The notes beneath the pieces were generated by a model. The model did not search any database, was not told the origin of the DNA, and was given only the letters and a program-made list of their open reading frames with translations. The position numbers and the translations under genes were made by a program. From contig JAUIHE010000007.1 in the NCBI GenBank assembly GCA_030432195.1, forward strand, positions 1 to 41,969: a stretch of DNA of 41,969 nt, written 5' to 3'. The stretch is from Alphaproteobacteria bacterium (GTDB lineage: Bacteria > Pseudomonadota > Alphaproteobacteria > UBA7985 > JAUIBT01). Shown piece by piece: positions 8,165 through 30,461 of this stretch (position 1 is its first letter; each line of letters begins with the position of its first letter).

Positions 8165-8836
8165 ATGCTAACCCTGTCCCTGCTGCTCGCTGACGAAGAG
8201 CGCTATGCCCCACGCCGTGGCCTAATGGTGATCTTGTCGTCGCCCTCGGGTGCGGGCAAATCCTCCACCGCCCGGCGCATTTTGGCAGCGGATGGCCGCA
8301 TCGTCTCGTCGGTGTCAGCCACAACACGCCCAATGCGCCCTGGCGAGGTCGAAGGCAGCGACTACTATTTCACAGACCGCAGCGACTTTGAACAAAGCAT
8401 CAAAGACGATGCCTTCTTGGAGCACGCAGAGGTGTTCGGGAACCTTTACGGCACGCCCAAGGCGCCCGTAATGGCGGCCCTGGGTCAGGGCAAAGACGTA
8501 ATTTTTGACGTGGATTGGCAAGGCGCCGAACAACTTCGAAACGCCGCACAAGAAGACGTGGTGTCGATATTCTTGCTGCCGCCGTCGATCGACGATCTGA
8601 GGGTGCGTTTGCGCGCACGCAACCAGGACAATGCCGAGACCGTACAACGGCGCATGCAAGGCGCTCATGGCGAGATCAGCCACTGGGAAGACTATGAATA
8701 TGTCTTGATTAATCGGGATCTGGACGAGACCGTCAGCGCGGTGCAAGCCATCATCACCGCTGAGCGCCTCAAGCGCCGACGTCAGCCAGGCCTTAAGCCC
8801 TTCGCAACCGAGCTGTTGGCAGAGCCTCTTTCCTAG
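8165..8836 (+). CDS. gmk: guanylate kinase
   Basis: A 223-residue cytoplasmic enzyme that phosphorylates GMP to GDP with ATP. The P-loop is SSPSGAGKSS at residues 25-34, followed by the GMP-binding region with SATTRPMRPGEVEGSDYYF and EHAEVFGNLYGTPK, the DVDWQGA strand (as D-x-D-W-Q-G), and the LID region RRMQGAHGEISHW. A 20-residue N-terminal extension before the first beta strand is common in alphaproteobacterial Gmk. The ATG at 8165 has a GGAG ribosome site overlapping the yicC stop, which decides the start. The TAG stop lies inside the first copy of a tandem repeat that continues downstream. Confidence 0.95.
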   Translation: MLTLSLLLADEERYAPRRGLMVILSSPSGAGKSSTARRILAADGRIVSSVSATTRPMRPGEVEGSDYYFTDRSDFEQSIKDDAFLEHAEVFGNLYGTPKAPVMAALGQGKDVIFDVDWQGAEQLRNAAQEDVVSIFLLPPSIDDLRVRLRARNQDNAETVQRRMQGAHGEISHWEDYEYVLINRDLDETVSAVQAIITAERLKRRRQPGLKPFATELLAEPLS

Positions 8837-8887
8837 GGCCCCTTTCCTAGCAACCCGTTCCTAGGGCCCCTTTCCTAGCAACCCGCT
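8832..8887. repeat. 28-bp tandem repeat x2, built of alternating 14-bp half-units, overlapping the gmk stop
   Basis: Two copies of a 28-base unit (8832-8859 and 8860-8887) differ at one base near the end. Each unit is itself two 14-base half-units that both begin TTCCTAG, one continuing GGCCCCT and the other CAACCCG, so the CCTA word recurs every 14 bases, with a fifth partial copy at 8888. The first copy contains the gmk stop codon. It may be a slippage product; no function is evident. Confidence 0.85.
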
Positions 8888-9183
8888 CCTAAAGCGCGTT
8901 TCGCCGAATTGCAGTCACCGAGCGCGCTCACTCTATTTGCTATTGCCGCAAATGCGCCTTGCTTGTCTTTGGCACAATCGAGGGCGATTGCTCGGGCTTC
9001 ACTCTAGCAACCCGGCAAGATCGAGTCAGGCTGCAACCAACGCACCGGCCACAAAAAAAACCCGCAAACAGCGGGGTTTTTGTGGTTCGAAGCGAGACGC
9101 TCATATCGGCGCCCAATAATCGGAAACCAAGGCCTTGCCTCCGATTTGCCGGAGCGCCGGCGCATGCGCTCACCAGAGGACGG
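8837..9183. other. 347-base gap between gmk and the 33-codon gene
   Basis: This stretch holds the tandem repeat just after gmk and the bidirectional terminator at 9051-9083. Between them (8890-9050) and from 9084 to 9183 no credible gene, RNA gene or mobile-element end was seen. The open frames in it lack ribosome sites and family features. Confidence 0.6.
9051..9083. terminator. bidirectional intrinsic terminator
   Basis: A stem with CCCGC on one side and GCGGG on the other around an AAACA loop is flanked by an A run on the left and a T run on the right. Read on the minus strand the stem is followed by eight Ts, so it is the strong end of the transcript carrying the 33-codon gene at 9184-9285. 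Read on the plus strand there are five Ts, so it can also stop transcription coming from gmk. Confidence 0.85.
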
Positions 9184-9285
9184 CTAGAAAGCCAGGACGG
9201 CCGCCTCGGCAAATGAATTGGACAACAATGCGAACAATATTGCTGCTCCAACCAGAGCCATCAGGCGTAAGCTGTTGACTGACAT
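9184..9285 (-). CDS. 33-residue hydrophobic peptide of unknown function
   Basis: A short reading frame beginning at ATG 9285, preceded at ideal spacing by the ribosome site AAAGGGAT and followed about 100 bases later by a strong intrinsic terminator. The peptide reads as a short polar start, a hydrophobic segment (LMALVGAAILFALLS, residues 8-22) and a tail NSFAEAAVLAF. It could be a single-pass inner-membrane peptide, or a signal-peptide-like sequence with a possible cut after AEA. The frame is open further upstream to 9405, but only this start has a ribosome site. I do not recognise a family. The combination of ribosome site, membrane segment and own terminator makes a real small gene likely, though not proven. 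Confidence 0.55.
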   Translation of the reverse strand: MSVNSLRLMALVGAAILFALLSNSFAEAAVLAF

Positions 9286-9407
9286 AGAAATCCCTTTGAT
9301 GCGAGCTTTGTATATTGTTTGCCTTGCCCTCGTTTTCGGCAATAGATCAGTGATTCGCAAGCTCGAAATTTGCCTAAATGGGAAAATTTTCGCTATCCTA
9401 TCCACAA

Positions 9408-9439
9408 CAAGTCACGCCTCATCGCCGAAGCGTGACTTG
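9408..9439. promoter_or_regulatory. 10-bp inverted repeat between the small peptide gene and msrP
   Basis: The arms CAAGTCACGC (9408-9417) and GCGTGACTTG (9430-9439) are perfect complements around a 12-base spacer. The repeat lies between divergent genes, 66 bases before the msrP ATG and 123 bases upstream of the small gene. No T run follows, so an operator for a dimeric regulator is more likely than a terminator. Confidence 0.5.
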
Positions 9440-9504
9440 ACCTTACCTTGGTAGGGCGACAAGCTCTTTCGCATATAGGTTGTTTGGCATGGGGGCATGG
9501 GGCT

Positions 9505-10530
9505 ATGACACGCCGTTTTTTGGGGCCGATTACTAGTGAGGCCGAAGTAACAGACGAGAAATTCGTCCTCGAACGTAGAAAAATAGTTCGAGGTCTTGCA
9601 GGACTTGGACTAACCGGGGCCATGCTGGGGGTCTCGGGCCTAGGCGGGACATCCAGAGCCAACGCTGCCGGCGGGTTAAGCGGCGATCCGTCCGCGTCAT
9701 TGTACCCGGTGCCGACCAATTCCAATTTTGCGACTGCAGACGTTGGTGGTCAAGCCTATCCGGTGACCTCGCCCTCCATCACCTCGATTTTCAACAACTA
9801 CTATGAATTCTATTCGGGGCGCGGAACCTCCAAGTCCATTTGGGAGCAAGCCCAGACCCTGCCGTTGCGCCCTTGGCGGCTAGAGGTCGTCGGGATGGTC
9901 GAAAAACCGCTCACTTATGAAATCGACGATCTGCTAGCAGCCATGCCGCTGGAAGAGCGCATTTATCGGCACCGCTGCGTGGAAACCTGGGCCATGACAG
10001 TGCCTTGGTCGGGCTTCCCGCTCGCGGCCCTGGTCAAACGCGCCGCGCCGCTATCAAGCGCCAAATACCTCAAGTTCGAGAGCTTCAACAACCCTGAGGT
10101 GGCCATCGGCCAACGCGAGACCCGTTACCCGTGGCCCTACGTTGAGGGCCTGACCATCGAAGAGGCGAGCAACGACTTAGCCTTCGTCGCGACGGGCGCT
10201 TACGGCAAGCCGCTGCTCAAGCAGATGGGCGCGCCCTTGCGCTTGGCCCTGCCCTGGAAGTACGGTTTCAAATCCTCAAAGGGCTTGGTGCGCATCACCT
10301 TCACAGACCGCCAGCCAGAGAGCTTTTGGGAGCGTCTGAACCGCCGTGAATACGGGTTCTGGGCGAACGTGAACCCGGATGTCGCGCACCCGCGTTGGTC
10401 GCAGGGTAACGAGCAGGACATCGGCACGGGTGAAAAGCGGCCGACCCTGCCTTACAACGGCTATGGCGAACAAGTAGCGCAGCTTTACAGCGACAAGCTA
10501 GCGGGCCTAGGCGACCGCCTGTTCCGTTGA
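9505..10530 (+). CDS. msrP: protein-methionine-sulfoxide reductase catalytic subunit MsrP (YedY family)
   Basis: A periplasmic molybdopterin enzyme that repairs oxidised methionine in envelope proteins. The ATG at 9505 gives 341 residues and a Tat leader with the twin arginine at R24-R25 (ERRKIVRG), a hydrophobic stretch and an ANA exit near residue 54. The Mo-ligand cysteine is C158 in YRHRCVETWAM, with family blocks PWRLEVVGMVEKPLTY and LPWKYGFKSSKGLV. The frame is open upstream to 9448, but that part has no leader logic. The usual membrane haem partner MsrQ (YedZ) is not next to it: the following gene is gluQRS. Electrons must come from an msrQ elsewhere or from another donor. A perfect inverted repeat lies just upstream (9408-9439). 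Confidence 0.92.
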   Translation: MTRRFLGPITSEAEVTDEKFVLERRKIVRGLAGLGLTGAMLGVSGLGGTSRANAAGGLSGDPSASLYPVPTNSNFATADVGGQAYPVTSPSITSIFNNYYEFYSGRGTSKSIWEQAQTLPLRPWRLEVVGMVEKPLTYEIDDLLAAMPLEERIYRHRCVETWAMTVPWSGFPLAALVKRAAPLSSAKYLKFESFNNPEVAIGQRETRYPWPYVEGLTIEEASNDLAFVATGAYGKPLLKQMGAPLRLALPWKYGFKSSKGLVRITFTDRQPESFWERLNRREYGFWANVNPDVAHPRWSQGNEQDIGTGEKRPTLPYNGYGEQVAQLYSDKLAGLGDRLFR

Positions 10531-26450: not shown

Positions 26451-28474
26451 GAGCTTTGGGCCTCTTTGCTCGCCACCAGACCAGAGCCGGCGCTTTGTGT
26501 GGACTTGCCAGCAACGGCGGCTCTAACACGGCGAGGGATGCCCAAACGCAAGCGGCGATCTGACAAGGACAAAAGCCCGCCGGCGACCATCAAAATGCCC
26601 CCCAGCCAAATCCAGGGAACAAAGGCACGGAAATAGGCCCGCACGATCCGCTTGCCATTTTGCTCATCGCCCAAAGCGACGTAGACGTCACCGTTCCAGC
26701 GCGAGTTAATGGCCGCCTCGGTGGTGCCCATTGCCCGAACCGGATAGGAGCGCTTTTCAGGCGCCAAACTTAGCCAGTCGTCTTGGCAGTTTTTCAAAAC
26801 CGTCAAATCGCCGCGCAGAGCGGTGTAGTTTGGTCCCGGCACCGTGTTGACGCCATTGAAGCGCACACAGTGCTGGCCTAAAGCGGCGGTCTCGCCGGGC
26901 GCCATGGTGGTAATGGTCTCGACTGACCAAGAAGTAGAGCCAACCATACCGATGATGGCGACGCCAAGCCCGGCGTGGGCCAGGCTCATGCCGTGTGCCG
27001 CGTTCGGAGTCCGCGCTATACGCTGCCACAATCCGGCAATGCTGCCATTGCGTAACCCGACACGGTCCCACCACTCGACCGCGGCGGCCACGATCAACCA
27101 GACCGCCAAACCAACACCTACGTAAGGCAGCCAAGCCCCACCGCGACGCAAGAAGATTACCGCAACGACGATCACCGCCGTGATCCCCAAGACCAAGCCC
27201 AGCCGCTGGGCTATGGCGCCCGCATCGGCGCGCTTCCAGGTCATGAAGGGACCGATCCCCATCACGATAATCAAGGGCGCCATCAGCGGAACAAAGGTGC
27301 GATCATAGAAGGGCCCGCCCACGGTGATTTTCTGCCCGCTTAGGGCTTCGACGACCAGGGGCCAAAGCGTGCCATAGAAGACGACAGCCGCCGCAATTGC
27401 CAATAAGAGGTTGTTGATAAGCAAGGCGCCTTCGCGGCTGATCGGGGCAAACAGCCCGCCCGGCTTAAAGATGGGCGCGCGCACGGCGAACAGCCCCAAA
27501 GATCCGCCAATGGACAAGGCCAGCAAGACCAAGATATAGCGCCCGCGCTCTGGATCGACCGCAAAAGCATGCACAGAAGTCAGCAGGCCCGAACGCACGA
27601 TAAAGGTACCAACCAGGCTCAGCGCGAAAGTTAGTACCGCAAAAAGGATGGTCCAGACCTTCATCGCATCGCGCTTTTCGACCACGATAGCGCAGTGCAG
27701 CAGAGCGGTTCCGCTCAGCCAGGGCATGAAGGAGACGTTCTCGACCGGATCCCAGAACCACCAGCCGCCCCAACCCAGCTCGTAATACGCCCACCAAGAG
27801 CCTAGCGTGATACCCGCGGTCAAGAAGACCCAAGCCGCCAGGGTCCAGGGGCGCACCCAACGCCCCCAAGCGGGATCTACACGCCCTTCAATCAGAGCCG
27901 CGACAGCAAAGGAAAAGGCCATGGAGAAGCCGACATAGCCCAAATAGAGCATGGGCGGGTGCATCGCCAGGCCGATATCTTGCAACAAGGGATTGAGGCC
28001 TTTGCCGTCGATGGGCAGCACCGCTTGACGCAAGAAAGGATTAGAGGTTAGCACCATGAAGCTCAAGAAGCCCAGCGCAATGCTGCCCTGCACCCCCAGC
28101 ACCCGCGCCTTGAGGCTGGAGGGGAGTCCGCGACCAGCCAACACGAGACAGGCAGAAAACAGGGTCAAAATCAGGGTCCAAAGCAGTAAGGAGCCCTCGT
28201 GATTGCCCCAGGTACCTGCAATGCGATATATCAGAGGTTTGTCCTGGTGGGAGTTCTCCCAAACCGCCAATAGGCTGAAATCGGAAACGATATAGGCGTG
28301 CATCAGCGCCGCAAAAGCCAGCAGCACCAAGGAAAAGCTGACCAAAGCCGCTTGGTCCGTGGCTTGCATCAAGCCCGCATGGCGACGTTGAGCGCCCCAA
28401 AAGCCAAACACCATCTGCAAGCTGGCAATGAAGGTCGCTAGAATGAGGGCGAAATGCCCAATCTCGGTGAACAT
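26447..28474 (-). CDS. ccmF: haem lyase subunit CcmF
   Basis: A large polytopic membrane protein of 675 residues when started at ATG 28474, whose A overlaps the ccmE stop (TAATG). The frame is open eight codons further upstream, inside ccmE. The haem-binding tryptophan-rich motif is WGGWWFWDPVEN (residues 235-246), and the block GTWGNHEGSLLLW lies at 87-99. Many hydrophobic helices follow, and a periplasmic domain sits before the last helix. CcmF with CcmH forms the complex that attaches haem to apocytochrome c. Confidence 0.96.
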   Translation of the reverse strand: MFTEIGHFALILATFIASLQMVFGFWGAQRRHAGLMQATDQAALVSFSLVLLAFAALMHAYIVSDFSLLAVWENSHQDKPLIYRIAGTWGNHEGSLLLWTLILTLFSACLVLAGRGLPSSLKARVLGVQGSIALGFLSFMVLTSNPFLRQAVLPIDGKGLNPLLQDIGLAMHPPMLYLGYVGFSMAFSFAVAALIEGRVDPAWGRWVRPWTLAAWVFLTAGITLGSWWAYYELGWGGWWFWDPVENVSFMPWLSGTALLHCAIVVEKRDAMKVWTILFAVLTFALSLVGTFIVRSGLLTSVHAFAVDPERGRYILVLLALSIGGSLGLFAVRAPIFKPGGLFAPISREGALLINNLLLAIAAAVVFYGTLWPLVVEALSGQKITVGGPFYDRTFVPLMAPLIIVMGIGPFMTWKRADAGAIAQRLGLVLGITAVIVVAVIFLRRGGAWLPYVGVGLAVWLIVAAAVEWWDRVGLRNGSIAGLWQRIARTPNAAHGMSLAHAGLGVAIIGMVGSTSWSVETITTMAPGETAALGQHCVRFNGVNTVPGPNYTALRGDLTVLKNCQDDWLSLAPEKRSYPVRAMGTTEAAINSRWNGDVYVALGDEQNGKRIVRAYFRAFVPWIWLGGILMVAGGLLSLSDRRLRLGIPRRVRAAVAGKSTQSAGSGLVASKEAQSS

Positions 28475-28920
28475 TAGCAGCCGCCTCCGCCTTGCCAAAC
28501 GCCCTGCTCTTTCAGCTTGTCGGCGACGTCCTTGGGCATGTAATTCTCGTCGTGCTTGGCCAGAACCTTGTCCGCCACAAACACGCCTTGCGCGTCGAGC
28601 TGACCTTCAGCGACCACTCCTTGGCCCTCACGGAACAGGTCCGGCAGGATGACGTTGGTGCGAACAAGCAAACTCGCCTCGCAATCCGTGACGCTGAAAT
28701 CGGTCTGAGTGCCTTGCTTGACGACTGTTCCAGTCTCCACCAGGCCACCGAGGCGGTAACGCTGGCCGTCGGCGGCGGTTTCTTGTTGCAGCTCGCTGGG
28801 CGTTTTGAAAAAGGCCGCCGTGGAGCTAAACGCCAGCGCCATAAAGATCACTGCAATGACCGCCAGGCCTAGCCCAACAGAAATGAACAGAAGCCGCTGC
28901 GACTTACGTGAATAGGCCAT
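28474..28920 (-). CDS. ccmE: haem chaperone CcmE
   Basis: A 148-residue membrane-anchored OB-fold protein. The N-terminal anchor (LLFISVGLGLAVIAVIFMAL) precedes the beta-barrel, and the covalent haem-binding histidine is H123 in AKHDENYMP. Residues 57-63 (LGGLVET) and 88-94 match the family. The last residues are GGGGC, an unusual terminal cysteine after a glycine run; most CcmE tails are disordered and variable. It overlaps ccmD and ccmF by one base. Confidence 0.95.
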   Translation of the reverse strand: MAYSRKSQRLLFISVGLGLAVIAVIFMALAFSSTAAFFKTPSELQQETAADGQRYRLGGLVETGTVVKQGTQTDFSVTDCEASLLVRTNVILPDLFREGQGVVAEGQLDAQGVFVADKVLAKHDENYMPKDVADKLKEQGVWQGGGGC

Positions 28921-29135
28921 TAGGTGCGTTCCTCGTTATCATCGGTGGGCGCAGAGCGTCCTGCATTGTCCGTGGCGCCGCCGCCGTCTTGGGCTTTCAA
29001 GCGATCCAGAGCCGCTTGACGGGTCTTCAGCTCTTGGACAGACCAGACAAAAATGCCGCCCATAACCAGCGCTACCAAGATGTAGGAGCCCCAAACGTAG
29101 AAGGCGTATCCGCCCATCGCGAAATAGTCAGCCAT
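28920..29135 (-). CDS. ccmD: haem exporter protein CcmD
   Basis: A 71-residue single-pass membrane protein with FAMGGYAFYVWGSYILVALVM near the N-terminus, the typical CcmD motif, followed by a charged cytoplasmic helix (QELKTRQAALDRLKAQ) and a disordered tail. CcmD stabilises the CcmABC-CcmE step that releases haem-loaded CcmE. Position between ccmC and ccmE supports the call. Confidence 0.9.
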   Translation of the reverse strand: MADYFAMGGYAFYVWGSYILVALVMGGIFVWSVQELKTRQAALDRLKAQDGGGATDNAGRSAPTDDNEERT

Positions 29136-29177
29136 GCGCTAAGCCTTTCATAATAGCTTGATTTTTTCTGCCATCGC

Positions 29178-29927
29178 CTAGGATGCCACCGCTTCAGCGG
29201 TCTGGCTTCGACGCATGAGAGACAGGCGCGCAGAGCGCAGACGGACCGCGGCCATTTCTGAACGCATGCGCAAGATCAACAGCGCAAAATAAAGAAGCTG
29301 GAAAGTGATTCCCATGACCAGCAAGGGCCACAGCAGCGACGCCTCGATTGTCGGACCGTCCATGCGGAACACAGAGGACGCTTGGTGCAGTGTGTTCCAC
29401 CAATCCACTGAAAATTTGATGACGGGCAAGATCAATGCGCCGACCAGCGCAAAAATACTAGCGATGCGGCGGCCTTGCGCTGGGTCTTCAAAGGCGTGAA
29501 CCAGCGCCATATAGGCCATATAGATGAAGAACAGGATCAAGACAGAGGTCATGCGCCCGTCCCATTCCCAATAGGTGCCCCACATGGGCTTGCCCCATAA
29601 GGAGCCTGTCACAAGCGAGCAAAAGGTAAAGGCCGCACCAATCGGCGCCGATGCCACCGCTGCGATTTCAGCCAACGGGTGGCGCCAAACCAGGGCTACA
29701 AAACTAGCGACCGCCATAGAGGCGTACACGAACATGGCCATCCAGGCCGACGGCACATGAATATACATGATGCGCACCGTCTCGCCCTGTTGATAGTCGG
29801 GCTCAACGATCACCAGCCCCCAGACCAGGCCGACGCCCAGACCGATCACCACCAAGCCCCACAGCCAAGGCGCGATACGGTCTGCCAGAGCGAAAAAACG
29901 CGCAGGTTGAGCAAATCGCGTAATCAT
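29178..29927 (-). CDS. ccmC: haem transporter/ligation protein CcmC
   Basis: A six-helix membrane protein of 249 residues when started at ATG 29927 (MITRFAQPARFFALADRIAP). The frame stays open up to 30038, but that extension is not family-like. The WWD-type motif WGTYWEWDGRMTS lies at 116-128, with haem-ligand histidines in IMYIHVPSAWMAM (H57) and in WWNTLHQ (about 184). It is the first gene of this Ccm run. ccmA and ccmB, often directly upstream, are missing here and must be elsewhere. Confidence 0.95.
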   Translation of the reverse strand: MITRFAQPARFFALADRIAPWLWGLVVIGLGVGLVWGLVIVEPDYQQGETVRIMYIHVPSAWMAMFVYASMAVASFVALVWRHPLAEIAAVASAPIGAAFTFCSLVTGSLWGKPMWGTYWEWDGRMTSVLILFFIYMAYMALVHAFEDPAQGRRIASIFALVGALILPVIKFSVDWWNTLHQASSVFRMDGPTIEASLLWPLLVMGITFQLLYFALLILRMRSEMAAVRLRSARLSLMRRSQTAEAVAS

Positions 29928-30461
29928 AGATAAGACCTTTTGTTCGTTTGGCCGGGCCATGCAGCACAGCGACACCTGGCTCTTTTGACATGGCGCACAA
30001 CGGCCCGCATGCAAAGACCAGCGAGAATTCTTCCTCATAGGCTCATATACCTACTTCCTAGGGAGCATACCAGACCTGCGCTGTCTCCTGATAAATCCGT
30101 GAATGCGTCATAGTCTCGCGGCGCAAAGGCAGGGTCTCGCGGCGCAAAGGCAGGGTCTCGCGGCGCAAAGGCAGGCCAAGCAGGCTCTAGCGCGCAGGCG
30201 CAATTCTTGCGGTTCCGGCCGTGTTGAGCGCTCTGCTTTTTGCCGGCGCTGTCGTGTTGCCCAGCCATATCTTTTCAGATCCAAATCGCACGGTCTGAAT
30301 TTCCCCTGACAAGCCCTGCTGAACTGCTAATGTGCCTGCTGGTGCTCACAGGCATGCTTGGGCTTGATAGTTGCCCTTTGTCTGCGCACTTAGAAGTTAA
30401 ACCTTGATCCGTTCGTTTAGGGCCCGGTTCGCCTCGGGCCCGTATCCGCAGGCCGTCGTTG
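29928..30461. other. 534-base divergent intergenic region between ccmC and ycjX
   Basis: It should hold the promoters of the ccm operon (leftward) and of ycjX (rightward), but no convincing -35/-10 pair could be picked. It contains a 21-base tandem repeat in three copies (30113-30175). No tRNA or recognisable gene was seen; the short frames across the repeat have no ribosome sites. Confidence 0.55.
30113..30175. repeat. 21-bp perfect tandem repeat x3
   Basis: The unit GTCTCGCGGCGCAAAGGCAG plus G occurs three times without a mismatch. Because 21 is a multiple of three, all frames over it give seven-residue peptide repeats, which explains the repetitive frames on both strands. It lies between the divergent ccmC and ycjX genes. 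Confidence 0.9.

Follow-up and report, generated by a model that had tools for sequence, protein, structure and literature searches.

A conserved 33-codon gene, probably for a membrane-spanning microprotein, between gmk and msrP in one genus of Alphaproteobacteria

Between gmk and msrP, a 33-codon reading frame is kept at the same length by purifying selection in three genomes of one alphaproteobacterial genus, together with its ribosome site and its place among the neighbouring genes. The frame was picked by eye from the raw sequence of a stretch of 41,969 nucleotides (contig JAUIHE010000007.1, positions 1 to 41,969; hereafter the window), and it could be confirmed as a gene with the help of two relatives. 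We have hardly any doubt that it is a real protein-coding gene, and we consider it highly probable that its product is a membrane helix. The whole explanation that we prefer, namely a genuine gene for a genus-restricted, single-span inner-membrane microprotein that has an accessory role and is controlled jointly with msrP, seems to us the better bet, with reservations. Small unannotated membrane proteins are already well known as a kind, and as a gene this one is well supported. The features of the locus are listed in Table 1.

Table 1. Features of the gmk-msrP locus, in window coordinates
Feature	Position	Strand	Remarks
33-codon small gene	9184..9285	minus	ATG 9285-9283, TAG 9186-9184; single predicted helix, residues 3-32
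Ribosome-binding site AAAGGGAT	9290..9297	minus	AAAAGGAT in G001, TTAGGGAT in G002
gmk, guanylate kinase (convergent neighbour)	8165..8836	plus	TIGR03263, 222 bits, cut-off 160
msrP, periplasmic methionine sulfoxide reductase catalytic subunit (divergent neighbour)	9505..10530	plus	NF003767, 371 bits, cut-off 207
Spacer to msrP, probable divergent control region	9286..9504		Invariant runs of 8-16 bases
Invariant runs in the msrP/peptide spacer	9350-9360, 9376-9391, 9398-9406, 9428-9435, 9437-9447, 9477-9484		Three genomes
Bidirectional intrinsic terminator-like hairpin	9051..9086, core stem 9061-9075	both	Between convergent gmk and small gene

The reading frame and its start

A first-pass annotation of the window had described a small frame with a ribosome site and one hydrophobic segment. 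We find these on the minus strand at 9285..9184, where six bases separate the GGG of the ribosome site AAAGGGAT from the ATG at 9285. The product of the frame is MSVNSLRLMALVGAAILFALLSNSFAEAAVLAF (33 aa). The frame is open further upstream and reaches 73 aa when counted from a GTG. Since this extension is not preserved at the protein level in the two relatives of the same genus (G001 and G002), whereas the ATG, a ribosome site and the 33 codons are all kept, we took ATG 9285 as the start.

No other frame of 20-60 aa in the window has all three of an ATG, a word resembling a Shine-Dalgarno site and a Kyte-Doolittle mean over 18 residues of 1.9 or more. These criteria were set after the frame was known, so that this count is indicative only. 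In 20 simulations of first-order Markov sequence (cut-off 2.0) there were on average 0.2 such frames per 42 kb, and for the 672-base spacer the result was 0 of 300. Conservation in the aligned genomes places the frame far beyond chance.

Codon constraint across the genus

Conservation of the frame beside msrP had been named in the first-pass annotation as a test, and a lack of codon constraint in relatives as the outcome that would speak against a gene. We made this comparison in three genomes and over 99 bases; two of the three carriers are labelled as MAGs, and the assembly that holds the window has 224 contigs and a completeness of 86%. The frame has the same length and place in both same-genus relatives, and the constraint in them is strong. 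Among the changed codons, the ratio of silent to replacing changes is 12:2, 16:5 and 18:4 in the three genome pairs. Base changes at codon positions 1, 2 and 3 number 3, 1 and 13 in the first pair, 8, 2 and 17 in the second and 7, 1 and 16 in the third, that is, 13 of 17, 17 of 27 and 16 of 24 fall at third positions. When the same base changes were dealt at random, as few replacements were seen in none of 20,000 deals for each pair, and 27-34% of the deals created a stop. The replacements in the peptide lie at positions 3 and 30 (V/I), at position 10 (A/T) and in the last two residues.

We also looked at the other frames of the same 99 bases. Four of the five show nearly all replacing changes, as well as stops in at least one genome. 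The fifth, which is antisense, is open in all three genomes; of its changed codons, 5 of 13, 11 of 21 and 9 of 20 replace the residue. Among the six frames, only that of the small gene has the full purifying pattern.

Compared with its neighbours, the small gene has a dN (NG86, three pairs: 0.062, 0.118 and 0.087) slightly above that of gmk (0.052, 0.085 and 0.064) and below that of msrP (0.092, 0.154 and 0.168); the values for yicC in the same pairs are 0.066, 0.150 and 0.157. We left gluQ out of this comparison: its G002 rows are unrelated frames (26-27% identity), and its dN between the window's own genome (G000) and G001 is 0.186. Estimates of dS, which are rough for so short a frame, are 0.80, 2.96 and 1.98 by NG86 and 0.37, 0.81 and 0.65 by YN00, with 0.9-1.7 by NG86 for gmk, msrP and yicC. 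By YN00 the dN/dS of the small gene is about 0.15-0.22.

Distribution

The peptide has one match in the window's own assembly. In a search of 61 genomes (this one and 60 relatives) it is carried by the same-genus genomes G001 and G002, with an identity of 97% and 90%, respectively, over the aligned parts and of 94% and 85% over all 33 residues. In all three genomes of the genus it has 33 codons and the gene order is the same, with gmk converging on the small gene and msrP diverging from it. The earlier reading of a small membrane-protein gene beside msrP is therefore supported, both by the strong codon constraint and by the place kept in all three. Five weak hits of the same search, four outside the genus and one a second place in G002, were read and judged to be chance. 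The weak match nearest in look (locus L006) has 41% identity over 22 residues with the end GFAEAS and lies inside a 65-aa frame.

Further sets of genomes, which overlap with each other and with the set of relatives, give a similar picture. In the order set (11 genomes) the three members of the genus match at E <= 4.3e-21, and no other match is better than E 0.198. The class set of 385 genomes has 15 with a match at E <= 0.1, namely the genus's three and twelve others at E 0.0096 or weaker; in the phylum set there are 6 of 398 at E <= 0.05, the window's own and five at E 0.011 or weaker. Among the GTDB-220 contigs 64 stretches fit a pattern and two were confirmed, which are the contigs of G001 and G002. 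In IMG/VR 37 stretches fit a pattern and none was confirmed as the peptide, and a plasmid search returned none. We were not able to recognise a relative beyond the genus in the order, class and phylum sets, GTDB-220, IMG/VR or plasmids, and as far as seen the peptide appears to be restricted to one alphaproteobacterial genus. Short proteins soon diverge beyond detection, so distant relatives are possible.

In the families f2 and f3 of the order, seven msrP loci (five of f2, two of f3; L020 is shorter than the other six) hold no small hydrophobic frame with a ribosome-site word beside msrP. With looser limits a few frames turn up in four of the seven (L019, L020, L021 and L025), which by eye are unlike each other; one of 48 aa, which begins upstream of msrP at 1131 in L020, sits within the span of a larger frame.

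A predicted membrane helix

From a three-row alignment, AlphaFold2 predicts one helix over residues 3-32, with a mean pLDDT of 94 and a pTM of 0.53. This helix is hydrophobic (18-residue Kyte-Doolittle mean 2.05) and long enough to span a membrane. An arginine close to the N-terminus and a glutamate towards the opposite end suggest, by the positive-inside rule, that the N-terminus is inside and the C-terminus outside. On an ideal helix (100 degrees per residue), G13, S24 and E27 fall on one side.

Searches of Pfam and NCBIfam, whose filters can lose short proteins, gave no match to the peptide at E up to 1, and for this reason its function rests on analogy. The sole match to a solved structure at E up to 10 was PetM of cytochrome b6f (1q90 chain M), with 13 residues at E 0.69. 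This is chance level, and we did not accept PetM as a homologue.

The main rival explanation concerns the same helix. Residues 1-28 could be a cleavable signal peptide and the gene could encode a minimal exported peptide, the product being either the last five residues or the freed signal peptide. The arginine, a hydrophobic core of about 14 residues and then SNSFAEA with A-x-A at -3/-1 are features of a signal peptide, and the C-terminal half also reads as the end of one (SFAEA-A). The A26-E27-A28/A29 stretch, read by eye, does not differ among the three genomes, but the residues after the putative cut do (AVLAF, AVLLI, AILLG). Ordinary signal peptides, on the other hand, drift in sequence; in this peptide it is the core that is conserved most, and the would-be five-residue product least. 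The helix predicted by AlphaFold2 is also unbroken, although a signal peptide, too, may come out of this program as a helix. Cleavage at A-E-A/A, giving a signal-peptide-like product, seems unlikely to us, and we prefer the uncleaved membrane helix.

msrP and the missing MsrQ

The msrP gene was scored as 9508-10527, with ATG 9505 as its presumed start and a frame open from TTG 9448. It matches above the cut-off in 10 of the 11 genomes of the order, among them all three of the genus; it is absent in G010, an f2 genome that is 72% complete. The membrane partner of MsrP is MsrQ, a multi-span haem protein, which we expect to find in the family PF01794. A search for this family, positive in an E. 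coli control, did not find it in the three genomes of the genus (completeness 99% in two), nor in the six f2 genomes (63-96% complete), five of which have msrP. It was found in two of the 11 genomes of the order, namely the two of family f3. In this genus, MsrP appears to work without MsrQ. In E. coli, MsrPQ is described as responding to reactive chlorine and copper (PMC9302797).

Could the peptide itself be a partner of MsrP? A helix that helps to dock or supply MsrP at the membrane would suit a genus that has msrP in all three genomes and no detectable MsrQ, and the two genes are divergent neighbours across a spacer that is conserved in all three. However, the peptide has neither His nor Cys and can hardly carry electrons itself, and the genes are divergent and do not form one operon. 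With 33 aa, one helix, no His and no Pfam match, it also differs from MsrQ. Moreover, f2 is equally without PF01794 and yet shows no such peptide, so the peptide is no general substitute for MsrQ. We consider a partner of MsrP improbable. The more specific idea that, in a lineage without MsrQ, a co-controlled helix docks MsrP to a different source of electrons (a quinol or cytochrome complex, for instance) we regard as a long shot. What suggests a link to MsrP is one thing only, the conserved control region that the two genes appear to share.

In four of the five f2 loci (L022, L023, L024 and L025) an open frame of 134-157 codons lies right after msrP, at about 2457-2930 and in the msrP direction, with a hydrophobic stretch visible by eye. 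The product of this frame is a candidate partner of an MsrP that lacks MsrQ. Beyond msrP in G002 (L003, 1-259) the place of gluQRS is taken by what by eye resembles the last part of a histidine kinase; synteny thus breaks on the far side of msrP in this genome, while gmk, the peptide gene and msrP stay together. Elsewhere in the window, AT skew is 0.24 at 27001-30000, and none of the other 3-kb bins listed goes above 0.10.

The downstream hairpin

About 110 nt downstream of the small gene, a terminator scan finds a hairpin (9075-9061) of five G-C pairs followed by a T-run. The first-pass annotation had seen here a strong terminator that ends the small-gene transcript. The hairpin does exist, but it is bidirectional and so reads as a terminator for gmk as well. 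It folds better than shuffles do, with z -2.89 leftward and -3.75 rightward. The scan of 8500-10000 gave three sites as against 1.7 (sd 1.3) in shuffles, and by itself it is weak evidence. G001 has an equivalent hairpin. In G002, the most distant relative, the scan finds no terminator-like site at this place, although one stretch there does fold (z -2.37). In this downstream spacer 14 of 120 columns are invariant in the three genomes. Right at the end of gmk and after it (8830-8887) we noticed by eye a direct repeat of about 28 bases, present twice (CCTAGGGCCCCTTTCCTAGCAACCCG...), and different short repeats in the same gmk-side spacer of G001.

Toxins of the TisB/Ibs/Ldr type are small, consist of a single helix and have their own terminator. 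The peptide resembles them in all three respects, and it might be read as a hydrophobic type I toxin that is held in check by an antisense RNA from the overlapping strand. We hold this to be very improbable. There is one strong match to the peptide per genome in the three genomes (the others are at E 0.2 or weaker), synteny is conserved, the constraint is like that of the housekeeping neighbours and the peptide has no charged C-terminus. The two Rfam matches within 8800-9600, isrK (20.4 bits, gathering score 50) and flavi_FSE (15.7 bits, gathering score 43), are both far below their gathering scores and were taken as chance, although undescribed RNAs are possible.

The spacer shared with msrP

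That the small gene and msrP have their upstream region in common, as had been proposed, holds true: the spacer lies between divergent genes and is conserved in all three genomes, with 122 of 238 columns invariant. This conservation upstream of the small gene is non-coding. Exact copies of two of its blocks occur only here in G000-G002. Allowing one mismatch, ACCTTACCWTGGTA is found once in each genome, in this spacer only; allowing two mismatches, AAATGGGAAAATTTTC has its exact copy here and four imperfect ones elsewhere, as many as the backward control. In these searches of G000-G002 we were not able to find a regulon that shares the blocks. Scans of the three genomes gave no sigma-70-like site in this spacer; in the scanned part of the window the only such site is leftward at 9753-9725, inside msrP, with 0.7 expected in shuffles. 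The plus-strand word CTATCCACA at 9398-9406, invariant in the three genomes, is one base off a DnaA box (TTATCCACA).

The simplest reading of the conserved spacer is probably a divergent control region, in which case msrP and the small gene would be controlled jointly. Consensus folding did not reveal an RNA structure in the spacer (covariation penalty +1.79; 3 of 45 pairs change on both sides). That the conservation is due to a DNA or RNA element (a divergent promoter, a 5' region or a small RNA) and that the frame is incidental has some appeal in view of the non-coding conservation upstream, but we regard it as next to impossible, as the changes within the frame are mostly found at third positions, a pattern that a DNA or RNA site leaves unexplained, and folding of the spacer is penalised on covariation.

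Proposed role and significance

In the explanation that we prefer, the small gene would be transcribed leftward from the conserved region that it has in common with msrP, the two would probably be controlled together, and the transcript would end at the hairpin at 9061-9075. The peptide would insert as a single span, with the N-terminus and its arginine in the cytoplasm and the C-terminus on the outer side, and might lie against a larger membrane protein by helix-helix contact, stabilising or tuning it as CydX and AcrZ do. By analogy, it is probably an accessory or regulatory helix of such a protein.

Several known small proteins, such as AcrZ, KdpF, MgtR and CcoM, the last of which belongs to the cbb3 oxidase, act by binding a larger membrane protein. 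CcoM has 36 aa (PMC10433244). The peptide shares the size class and the likely topology of these four and differs from them in having no Pfam or NCBIfam match, a distinction that comes from family searches and not from one-by-one comparison. CydX is a single helix that, like the peptide, has a glutamate late in the helix; it also has Trp/Tyr residues. The peptide has neither Trp nor Tyr, its neighbours in all three genomes are gmk and msrP and not cydAB, and it gives no Pfam match at E up to 1, including to PF08173, which we take to be the CydX family. According to PMC4325964, CydX has 37 aa, is part of cytochrome bd oxidase and goes with cydAB, and its homologues are often unannotated (80 of over 300). 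The likeness to CydX, as described there, is that of a short membrane protein, often unannotated and kept by selection (PMC4325964). More generally, an unannotated, taxon-restricted small protein is of a kind to be expected from the GMSC catalogue, which lists 965 million non-redundant small ORFs (PMC11364881).

Since the peptide is conserved about as well as guanylate kinase and is nevertheless unrecognised by Pfam and NCBIfam, it likely does something that the genus needs. Were it linked to MsrP, it would matter for the question of how this enzyme is supplied with electrons where MsrQ is missing.
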